Part shown: positions 1,530-32,677 of the stretch, one piece after another
Numbering within the stretch: the first letter of the stretch is position 1
Layout of the letters: every line of letters begins with the position of its first letter
Assembly (NCBI GenBank): GCA_031262165.1
Contig: JAISIF010000102.1
Location: 1 to 33,687, forward strand
Direction of reading: 5' to 3'
From: Myxococcales bacterium
Lineage (GTDB): Bacteria; Myxococcota; Myxococcia; Myxococcales; UBA5297
Length of the DNA stretch: 33,687 bases
Position numbers and translations under genes: made by a program
The notes under the pieces: generated by a model
What the model was told of the DNA's origin: nothing
Databases searched by the model: none
Seen by the model: only the letters and a program-made list of their open reading frames with translations

Positions 1530-1696
1530 CCTTAGGACTTATCCCTCGATGAGGACCGAGCAATGCGAAGGACGGGGAATGCCAGACTTTGGCGCGAGGC
1601 GGGCGCTTCCAGACGGAAGCGAAGAGCGAAGCAACGACGGCTGGCATTTCACGGACAAGCTTCGGCGACGGGATAATTGAGGGATAGATCCTCAGG
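1530..1696. repeat. 167-bp dispersed element, copy 1 (imperfect terminal inverted repeats)
   Basis: One of three related copies (also 2503-2669 and 12362-12526), with no credible ORF inside. The left end CCTTAGGACTTATCCCTC matches the reverse complement of the right end (CCTGAGGATCTATCCCTC) with few mismatches. Inside are a perfect 8-bp arm pair AATGCCAG / CTGGCATT and a 7-bp hairpin CGCTTCC-AGAC-GGAAGCG. The end of the element lies 33 bp before the ATG of the gene at 1730, on the same strand. It could be a MITE-like element or a structured RNA leader; I do not recognise a named family. Confidence 0.8.
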
Positions 1697-1729
1697 CCGC
1701 GCAGAGAGCAGCAGGAAGGATGGCCAATC

Positions 1730-2431
1730 ATGGAAAAAATAGACGCGAACTATGACTTCTCGATGGACTCGGTCGGGCAACCTTCACTGCCGCCGTCCAA
1801 CCCTCTGGCCATCGTGGCCCTCGTGCTCGCCATCATGGCCCTGCCTTTGAGCTTCGTTCCGATCGGTGGCCTTCTGCTCGCCATCGCCGCGCTCGTCCTG
1901 AGCATCGTCGCACACGGGAAGTCGCGCACCCGGCATGGCGCGGGCGCAGGCCTGGCCGTAGGCGGCATCACGCTCTCGATCCTCGCGCTGCTCCTCGGCC
2001 TGATGACGACTTCCTGCACGTTGCTCGTCGTCAAAAAGGCGCACAGCGATCTGAGCGGCACGGGCATGAACCTCAAGGACCTCTTCCAGCAGGCGCGCCT
2101 GTCGGCCATGGACGGCCCTGCCGCGGAGCGCCTCCGCGAAGAGATCCGTGGGCAGGTGCTCGATCCGTCGGCGCCGATCATGTTCGAGATGAACGAGGCT
2201 GAGCTGACCGAGCGCATCGACACGGCCAAGCACACGGAGCTCCTCCTCATGAAGACGCTCCTCCAGAAGATGAACGCCGTCCCGCTCGACCAGATCTCTC
2301 CTCAGGAGCGCGCCCAGCTGACCGAGCTCTTCCGTGGCCAGCTCCCAGGCCTGGCCACCCCCCAAGCCCTAGGCGCAGCTGATGAGAAGTCGTCGCGGAC
2401 GAGCGCGGCGCCTCCAGCCGTCGAGCAGTGA
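1730..2431 (+). CDS. DUF4190-like membrane protein
   Basis: 233 aa. Two hydrophobic stretches (about residues 25-60 and 75-102), with a short basic hinge HGKSRTRHG between them, have the Ala/Leu/Gly-rich pattern of DUF4190-type small membrane domains. The region after about residue 105 is soluble, largely helical and charged, with a low-complexity C-terminal tail. The start is supported by AGGAAGGA 9 nt upstream. Function is unknown; family members are usually annotated only as membrane proteins. The gene stands alone between two copies of the 167-bp repeat, which bracket it at 1530-1696 and 2503-2669. Confidence 0.7.
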   Translation: MEKIDANYDFSMDSVGQPSLPPSNPLAIVALVLAIMALPLSFVPIGGLLLAIAALVLSIVAHGKSRTRHGAGAGLAVGGITLSILALLLGLMTTSCTLLVVKKAHSDLSGTGMNLKDLFQQARLSAMDGPAAERLREEIRGQVLDPSAPIMFEMNEAELTERIDTAKHTELLLMKTLLQKMNAVPLDQISPQERAQLTELFRGQLPGLATPQALGAADEKSSRTSAAPPAVEQ

Positions 2432-2502
2432 GCTCAACTCACCGCATCATCCCATGGACCGCATGATCCCATGGACCGCACTTCCTCCCTCTCACCACAT
2501 CG

Positions 2503-2669
2503 CCTTAGGACTTATCCATTCATTAGGACCGAGCAACGCGAAGGACGTGGCGTGCCAGACTTTGACGCGAGGCAGGATCTTCCAGACGGAAGTGAAGCGC
2601 GAAGCAACGAAGAAAGGCGTTTCACGGACAAGCTTTGGCGACGGAACAATTGAGGGATGAGTTCTTAGA
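2503..2669. repeat. 167-bp dispersed element, copy 2
   Basis: Second copy of the element at 1530-1696, in the same orientation. The left end is CCTTAGGACTTATCC and the right end GAGGGATGAGTTCTTAG. The short hairpin CTTCC-AGAC-GGAAG is kept, while the internal 8-bp arm pair is partly lost (CGTGCCAG versus AAGGCGTT). It ends only 10 bp before the ATG of the peptidase gene at 2680, so the region where a ribosome binding site would lie overlaps the element. Confidence 0.8.
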
Positions 2670-6072: not shown

Positions 6073-6304
6073 TGGACTGTCCCCGCTTTTACGCACATCT
6101 AAATTTGAATCGGCTGGGGTGCATGATTTCCTTCTGAACACATCTTGAGCTCTTTTGAAAGCTGCCTCGTTGATTTGGAACTCTTTCGACACAGCTCCAC
6201 AACTTCGGAACGATACTCCTTGGAATAGTGCTTCTTCACCATGGTGGACTCCTCTAGAGAAAAGTGATTCATGATAAAGTGTGCGCAAAATCAGGGACAG
6301 TCCA
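6073..6304. mobile_element. Internally deleted IS3-family element (MITE-like) with 3-bp target duplication
   Basis: A 232-bp element. Its 25-bp terminal inverted repeats both begin TGGACTGTCCC and match at 22 of 25 positions (6073-6097 and 6280-6304). It is flanked by GGT at 6070-6072 and GGT at 6305-6307, consistent with the 3-4 bp target duplications of IS3-family elements. Inside, only the start of orfA survives (6099-6242). It sits between the stop codon of the gene at 6343-6993 and the start of the gene at 5278-6054. Removing it leaves a spacer of about 53 bp, so it probably split an operon. It could still be mobilised in trans by a full-length relative. Confidence 0.85.
6099..6242 (-). 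pseudogene. Truncated IS3-type transposase OrfA
   Basis: 47 codons starting MVKKHYSKEYRSEVVELCRK and continuing to RQLSKEL. This is the first helices of the HTH_Tnp_1 DNA-binding domain of IS3-family OrfA. The ribosome binding site GAGGAG lies upstream. After KEL the sequence leaves the OrfA pattern and stops, so the helix-turn-helix is incomplete and all of OrfB (the DDE integrase) is deleted. It lies inside the 232-bp element at 6073-6304. Confidence 0.8.
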
Positions 6305-12076: not shown

Positions 12077-12194
12077 TGTTTCAAAACCGCATTCACACAA
12101 AACTTTCATCGCGTATGAACGCGATAAATCGCGCTCTCTATTCTCAATAGTTGAACCGAACAGGGAGTCATGAATGGCGCTGCTACAAGAAGAC
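12077..12194. repeat. 118-bp dispersed structured repeat, copy 1
   Basis: It matches 18182-18299 at roughly three quarters of positions over the same 118-bp length and in the same orientation. Shared blocks include CAAAACCG, CTCTATTC and GAACCGAACAGGG followed by CATGAATGG. It contains hairpin ATCGCGT-ATGA-ACGCGAT followed by GCGAT-AA-ATCGC. It lies between the terminator at 11731 and the third copy of the 167-bp element. No gene is evident; one frame is conserved between copies, but no more than the nucleotides. Confidence 0.65.
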
Positions 12195-12361: not shown

Positions 12362-12526
12362 CCTAAGGCCTTATCCCTCCATTAGGACCGAGCAACGCGA
12401 AGGATGGGGAATGTCAGACGAGGCGCGGGGCGAGATCTTCCAGACGGAAGTGAGCATCGAAGCGACGAAGGCTGGCGTTTCACGGATGAGCGGGGCGACG
12501 GGATAATTGAGAGATAAGTTCTTATT
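12362..12526. repeat. 167-bp dispersed element, copy 3
   Basis: Third copy of the element at 1530 and 2503, in the same orientation. The left end is CTAAGGCCTTATCCCTCC and the right end GAGAGATAAGTTCTTAT. The internal arms here are AATGTCAG and CTGGCGTT, which still pair as RNA through two G-U wobbles. The hairpin CTTCC-AGAC-GGAAG is kept. The end is 26 bp upstream of the ATG at 12553. Confidence 0.78.
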
Positions 12527-18181: not shown

Positions 18182-18299
18182 TGTTCCAAAACCGAATCCG
18201 CACAGGATTTTTCATTGCGCAGTGGTGCGATTTATCGCGCCCTCTATTCCGAATCTTCGAACCGAACAGGGCGCCATGAATGGCCCGCCTACGAAAGAC
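18182..18299. repeat. 118-bp dispersed structured repeat, copy 2
   Basis: Partner of 12077-12194, same length and orientation. The first hairpin here reads ATTGCGC-AGTG-GTGCGAT, which still pairs through two G-U wobbles, and the second is GCGAT-TT-ATCGC. It lies in the 594-bp divergent spacer 17993-18586, the rest of which shows no gene. The promoters of both flanking genes must be in this spacer. Confidence 0.65.
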
Positions 18300-30111: not shown

Positions 30112-30686
30112 CCATCAGGAAAGAGGATTTGCTGCGCTGAAAACGACCCACACCGAGGACGACGACAGGAGCGCCGACCAAGGCCGAGGTCTTCGAAGGG
30201 GCATCAAAAAAGAGCCGGGCGGTTTAGTGCAGGCTCCCGGACCTGTCAATTCACGGCAACCCAGGAAACCTCTCGATTTCATTCAGGATTTCTCCTGATG
30301 GGGAGAACCCGTCAGGGATAGGCGCCGCGGCGTGAGACGGCTTCAACACGCCTGACACCCGAGATGTTTTCTGGGGCATGTCCTCGACCGCTCCTGTCGC
30401 CGCGCCGATCCGGGAAAAGCCAGGCATCGTTACTTCGCTTCATCGGTCACTTGCCTCAGCAGGCGCCCTCTTCAGGCCTGATCGGTCATTCCACGTCCTT
30501 CGCGCGGCTCGATCCGAAGTCGAGGAGACGCCCTATTCGACCTCCCAAAACAGAACTCGATTGCCCTGCTCTATCGAGGCAGGCATCTTGAGCGGCTTTC
30601 CGCCTGCCAGCCACTCTCCTCCCTCCCCTCCCCTCCCCTCCCCTCTCCTCACCTCACCTCTCCGCGATGGAAGAACTGGACGCCCC
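30112..30686. other. Divergent intergenic region
   Basis: 575 bp between divergent genes. Open frames crossing it are unconvincing, with composition unlike coding DNA nearby. It must hold both promoters, but no clear -35/-10 pair was found. It ends with the pyrimidine tract described at 30614-30650. Confidence 0.5.
30614..30650 (-). repeat. (GGGGA)n tract with G-quadruplex potential
   Basis: 37 bases with only C/T on the plus strand. The minus strand reads four consecutive GGGG blocks separated by single A, flanked by GGG and GAG. Single-base loops make this a strong G-quadruplex candidate. It lies 37 bp upstream of the ATG of the gene at 30687, on its template strand. Confidence 0.75.
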
Positions 30687-31800: not shown

Positions 31801-31939
31801 AATCAATCGTTTTTCCTTCGATGGCGAGGCCAAGCGATCGCTCGTCGTGGACAATCACCCTGGATTGCGTCGCTGCCTCGCGAGAACGATGAATTCTCTC
31901 GCCATCGAATCAATGGCGATTCGAACGATTTCGATTCGA
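31801..31939. repeat. 139-bp direct repeat, left copy
   Basis: It matches 32425-32563 at 129 of 139 positions, with no gaps and identical sequence over the last ~65 bases. Inside, TTCGATGGCGAG near the left end is the exact inverse of CTCGCCATCGAA near the right end, and CAATC-ACCCTG-GATTG forms a further small hairpin, so each copy can fold as a long hairpin. Together the two copies flank a decayed IS200-type transposase. Confidence 0.85.
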
Positions 31940-31941
31940 GT

Positions 31942-31972
31942 AAAAAGCCCCCAGCAAAGCAGGGGGCTTTTT
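31942..31972. terminator. Bidirectional terminator hairpin
   Basis: A perfect 11-bp stem, AAAAAGCCCCC / GGGGGCTTTTT, with a 9-nt loop and T-tracts on both strands. It lies at the 3' side of the transposase remnant. Confidence 0.88.
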
Positions 31973-32424: not shown

Positions 32425-32563
32425 AATCAATTCTCTTTCCCTCGATGGCGAGGCCAAGCGACCGTTCGTCGTCGGCAATCACCCTGGATTGCTTCGCTAC
32501 CTCGCGAGAACGATGAATTCTCTCGCCATCGAATCAATGGCGATTCGAACGATTTCGATTCGA
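32425..32563. repeat. 139-bp direct repeat, right copy
   Basis: Same orientation and length as 31801-31939. It is preceded by a small hairpin CCCCGGC-AAA-GCCGGGG (32395-32411) followed by CTTT. It ends 114 bp before the glmS start, so it probably lies within or upstream of the glmS promoter region. No glmS ribozyme or other leader structure was recognised in the remaining gap. Confidence 0.85.
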
Positions 32564-32677
32564 ATCAAATCCCCCACCCGCCTTCCCCAAAAATCGCGTT
32601 GACGCATTCCTGCAATTTTTCGATGGACCCCTACCTTTGGCGTCACGTCTTTTCTCGAGGGAAGGAAGAGGTCGAAC

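Follow-up and report, generated by a model that had tools for sequence, protein, structure and literature searches.

Four copies of a short non-coding repeat lie in the 33,687 bp window analysed here, a stretch of contig JAISIF010000102.1 (positions 1 to 33,687) from a Myxococcales bacterium [GenBank: GCA_031262165.1] whose genome comprises 3.02 Mb in 214 contigs. Three are on the forward strand, at 1532–1694, 2505–2667 and 12364–12524, flanking trinucleotides included. Copy 1 is bordered by TTA (1532–1534) and TCA (1692–1694), and its inner element (1535–1691) has the end GGACTTATCC on the left and GGATAGATCC on the right. Copy 2 retains an intact target duplication, TTA/TTA, around an inner element at 2508–2664, and copy 3 has TAA on the left and TTA on the right of 12367–12521. 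The inner elements are 157, 157 and 155 bp long and are 81–88% identical across matched stretches. A first-pass annotation of the window, made from the sequence alone, had reported three copies of about 167 bp and near-equal length; all three are real. It missed a fourth, diverged copy of a second subfamily on the reverse strand at 30374–30535 (nhmmer E 5e-26), the nearest relatives of which are loci L017, L015, L041 and L048.

That annotation described the inverted ends and the CTTCC-AGAC-GGAAG hairpin correctly, and it was also right that no coding open reading frame (ORF) fits any of the repeat copies. Each copy contains a structured core. The GA-rich core of copy 1 is at 1575–1656 on the forward strand (core model R2 E 1.8e-15; R3 E 3e-4), that of copy 2, which has decayed, at 2548–2629 (R2 E 1.3e-9) and that of copy 3 at 12407–12487 (R2 E 1e-17; R3 E 2e-6), these two also on the forward strand; copy 4 matches the R2 core model at E 4e-6. 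Copy 1 has a folding energy of -76.3 kcal/mol (z -6.0). The z-score is -3.6 for copy 2 and only -1.4 for copy 3.

Copy number, age and placement in the source genome

Are these four copies a local family? Searching the whole genome by BLAST gave 43 matches to the repeat, and a profile search of 1.27 Mb of it gave 176 hits, 114 of them full-length, far beyond chance. Extrapolation from the density in 0.66 Mb of contigs picked without regard to the element (98 hits/Mb) gives about 300 copies genome-wide, roughly half of them full length. The median inner length is 156 bp. Median pairwise identity among the copies is about 80%, with a nearest neighbour at 87.5% and a maximum of 93.5%, a spread that suggests an old burst. 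No copy of 124 lies inside a called gene (crude ORF caller), and orientation relative to neighbouring genes is unbiased, at 35:29. A search of the genome copies for orientation bias, position bias or constraint after insertion found none.

The repeat has no copies in the same-genus genomes G001 and G002; a weak 38-bp match in G002 is unsupported by the profile. G002 retains the genes around copies 1 and 2 in the same order and has neither copy, the intergenic DNA there having diverged too far to prove empty sites base by base.

Inverted ends, target duplication and a likely IS5 family partner

Alignment of 113 copies places precise inverted ends, GGACTTATCC on the left and GGATAAGTCC on the right, directly within flanking TNA trinucleotides. 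Identical 3-mers are present on both sides in 48 of the 113 copies, compared with a shuffled mean of 24 and a shuffled maximum of 37; no copy has identical 4-mers. Where TNA is found on both sides, the middle base is the same in 45 of 69 copies (expected 27, p 1e-5), so that the target-site duplications the first-pass annotation had proposed counting are of the 3-bp TNA type. The repeat is a miniature inverted-repeat transposable element (MITE), being non-coding, shorter than about 500 bp, multi-copy and bounded by terminal inverted repeats and a target duplication.

In 11 genome copies an extra heptamer, TAAGTCC, stands between the right end and the duplication. The same heptamer is found in an insertion sequence (IS) on contig C107 (genome G000), where it sits at L124 1927–1943. 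This IS runs from TAA and GGACTTGTCC to GGATAAGCCC-TAAGTCC and TAA, and thus shares with the repeat near-identical ends, the type of duplication and the heptamer. Its two overlapping frames carry DUF4096 and DDE_Tnp_1 domains, and it belongs to the IS5 family (NCBIfam NF033580, Pfam PF13340 and PF01609); a second copy, 88% identical, is present on C50, and there are about 15 fragments in the genome. By its ends, which are common to this IS5 family element of the same genome, the repeat would be IS5-derived (IS1031-like TNA group). The two have only the terminal stretch in common and the repeat has no transposase. The C107-type element is likely to be the mobilizer of the repeat, its two-frame transposase acting in trans.

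A fold that decays in inserted copies

The consensus of the genome copies forms a single long hairpin (-83 kcal/mol), with a median folding energy for individual copies of -67.5 on the plus strand versus -48.5 on the minus strand. Is this fold maintained once a copy has inserted? The first-pass annotation had left a MITE and an RNA as alternatives, and had taken a G-U change in the arms AATGTCAG/CTGGCGTT of copy 3 as a hint of selection on an RNA fold. The change is real. However, the C/T difference in these arms is a subfamily variant carried by 31 of 94 copies, and rare variants among the genome copies give G-U as often as A-C (49 versus 53). Departure from the consensus is 0.108 at paired and 0.112 at unpaired sites, and RNAalifold finds no consensus fold among the genome copies. 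We therefore rejected selection on an RNA fold within this genome: because rare variants are equally frequent at paired and unpaired sites and G-U approximates A-C, inserted copies are under no detectable fold selection and decay freely. The ends, the TNA duplication, the IS5 family partner and random intergenic placement uphold the MITE; the argument for an RNA falls at the level of the single genome.

Relatives with the same core and different arms

A sequence model of the repeat matched a second genus within its family, and scanning named genomes for a pattern brought in a Myxococcales metagenome-assembled genome (MAG) from Baikal and a Luteitalea MAG. In these relatives the core is the same and the arms are different. 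With the core model, the Baikal genome yields 57 copies, Luteitalea 14 and genome G003 12. A refined version detects multi-copy relatives in two phyla, in 30 of 195 genomes from that of the window (inferred to be Myxococcota) and in 61 of 396 from that of Luteitalea, Acidobacteriota, many of them reaching the scoring cap. Near-identical copies are carried at G003 contig ends (L164, L198, L200), and for this reason the element is probably of recent date in G003 and a cause of breaks in its assembly.

Two copies are present in a viral contig carrying Mu-like portal and terminase genes, and weaker paired cores occur in Halomonas and Azotobacter plasmids. BLAST of plasmids and phage with several families found nothing beyond short stretches of core, matched in one Halomonas plasmid and two plasmids of Azotobacter. 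Of five viral matches to a loose pattern, three (L315–L317) go unmatched by the core model and do not represent the element. A double-hairpin version, with core pairs arranged head-to-head, is seen in the Mu-like phage contig (L313 3161–3344) and in the Halomonas and Azotobacter plasmids (L318 2491–2673, L319 2489–2671).

The core begins with a covarying stem; base pairs, singly or in twos, follow in alternation with tandem G-A mismatches, and a terminal hairpin, also covarying, completes it. In about nine sequences out of ten, the 2x2 loops of the inner core have GA facing GA. Across families, identity is 0.80–0.83 in the core, 0.54 in the adjoining stem and near chance (about 0.3) in the end 20 nt. 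Cores lie between unrelated inverted ends, of a class with TNA followed by GG.. and a class with CTAG, and still the 26 elements whose TNA or CTAG flanks are clear have an inner length of 155–162 bp (median 158). The better fold is that of the plus strand in 53 of 53 cases.

Covariation of base pairs is strong between families. A MAFFT alignment of 16 cores (A4) scores 0.320, sliding giving no more than 0.176, and 15 of 24 pairs are double-changed. In a model-aligned set of 75 cores (A5) the score is 0.485, compared with no more than 0.151 after sliding, and double-changed cells number 340 versus 111 shuffled (0/500). At one core pair of A5 all four Watson-Crick types are found (GC 33, CG 27, AU 4, UA 4), and neighbouring pairs flip from GC to CG. 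The signal persists in 19 representatives less than 75% identical, and G-U exceeds A-C by 39:20 (p 0.018) in the cross-family set. The core thus has a conserved fold with compensatory changes above control. The hint of fold selection given by the first-pass annotation was right at this level, since the covariation appears between families with different arms, where its author could not have seen it.

What the core may do

Most probably, the repeat is a MITE of about 156 bp, likely mobilized by an IS5 family element, with a conserved hairpin core selected for the multiplication of the element itself. The strand-specific fold would be selected while the element multiplies and would decay after insertion. 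Given the free decay and random placement of inserted copies, the core would appear to serve its own spread rather than to do a job for the host. That one strand folds better than the other, and that G-U outnumbers A-C, speaks for an RNA transcript or one DNA strand as the folding molecule rather than a symmetric cruciform.

Several points weigh against this account. Fitting to the model inflates pairing in the A5 set, although the MAFFT alignment agrees, and part of the covariation reflects shared ancestry within arm families. A matched IS has been demonstrated for one arm family only. No relative of the IS5 transposase of this genome lies near the loci in other genomes (tblastn over 359 kb), and the remaining arm families are therefore without a demonstrated partner; their IS5 link comes from duplication type and general IS5 habits. 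Duplications are fully identical in less than half of the copies, as expected of old insertions. The proposed mobilization, the kind of nucleic acid that folds and the role of the fold are all inferred from sequence.

Could the repeat be an ordinary IS5-derived MITE with an accidental interior hairpin, its fold unselected at every level? Neutral decay at paired and unpaired sites alike, the failure of RNAalifold and the random orientation of copies would all be expected, but covariation between families, with every Watson-Crick type at one pair, a core kept between unrelated arms and a constant element length are not, and this explanation is disfavoured already and unlikely. A structured RNA or regulator that serves the host and rides on mobile elements, comparable to the RNase III sites in Correia elements, would account for the strand-specific fold, the cross-family preference for G-U (39:20, p 0.018) and the purine-rich loops. 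Such a role fits poorly with the lack of orientation bias relative to neighbouring genes, the unconstrained inserted copies, the absence from G001 and G002 and the lack of an Rfam match, and we consider it very improbable. The same low probability attaches to movement as folded single-stranded DNA, recognized by its structure in the manner of integron attC sites or REPIN rather than cut and pasted as an IS5 duplex. Only one strand folds well, folding brings both ends together and tandem G-A mismatches are stable in DNA too; yet duplications of 3 bp and of CTAG type are what DDE enzymes produce, and the genome has a DDE IS5 partner whose ends are identical.

In the usual view of a MITE the ends are retained and the interior drifts. 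These families invert that picture, with ends that vary and an interior structure retained across phyla at a fixed length. Because structure and length are conserved while ends differ, the interior would be expected to do something for the element. The conservation of the core across several phyla suggests that a parasitic module of DNA or RNA is widespread, and the families together look like an unrecognized cross-phylum superfamily of IS5-type MITEs. More tentatively, and with slightly less confidence than doubt, the core of about 80 nt may be an independent selfish module that has been refitted repeatedly between different IS5 family ends across phyla, to a total of about 158 bp, its fold, in RNA or in one DNA strand, being needed for multiplication. 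With many genomes, high copy number, clear compensatory pairs and one or more likely partner transposases, the system is testable. A covariance model of the core would annotate many currently unlabelled repeats, some of which fragment assemblies.

Comparison with known elements

The first-pass annotation knew no named family of this kind. Rfam gives no match at gathering score in the window, nor in L001, L164, L166, L220 and L222 at permissive E, and no earlier description was found in the literature searched by sequence words and topic. The IS5 family IS of the same genome is among the closest known elements. REP and REPIN sequences with their RAYT transposase are, like the repeat, hairpin-forming and mobile. 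Their transposase is of the Y1 type and leaves no target duplication; unlike them, the repeat has a DDE-type target duplication. ERIC and Correia elements are not known to be related to the repeat in sequence. They resemble it in high copy number, length (about 127–150 bp), intergenic placement and folding once transcribed (PMC10969869 for part of these features). MITEs such as Chunjie of Geobacter (235 bp) and QMITE2 of Coxiella are also short, non-coding and intergenic, with inverted ends, target duplication and a stable transcript hairpin (PMC10969869); unlike them, the repeat families keep the interior across phyla and differ in the ends. Acidobacteria and Myxococcota go unmentioned in that review. 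The Solibacter-1 motif, an ambiguous structured motif described in an acidobacterium and without an Rfam entry (Weinberg 2010, PMC2864571), may, on a comparison by description only, be an earlier sighting of the core.

Other repeats in the window

A second dispersed repeat of about 83 bp, unrelated to the MITE, is present at 12104–12186 and 18210–18292 (76% alike); a search of 1.45 Mb of the source genome gave about 10 matches to it. A 151-bp direct repeat occurs at 31801–31951 and 32425–32575, the two copies being 91% identical, 624 bp apart and the only ones in the genome DNA searched. At 6073–6304 there is a single-copy 39-bp inverted repeat, TGGACTGTCCCC.../...GGGACAGTCCA, with its arms 154 bp apart, which looks like the remnant of another transposon.
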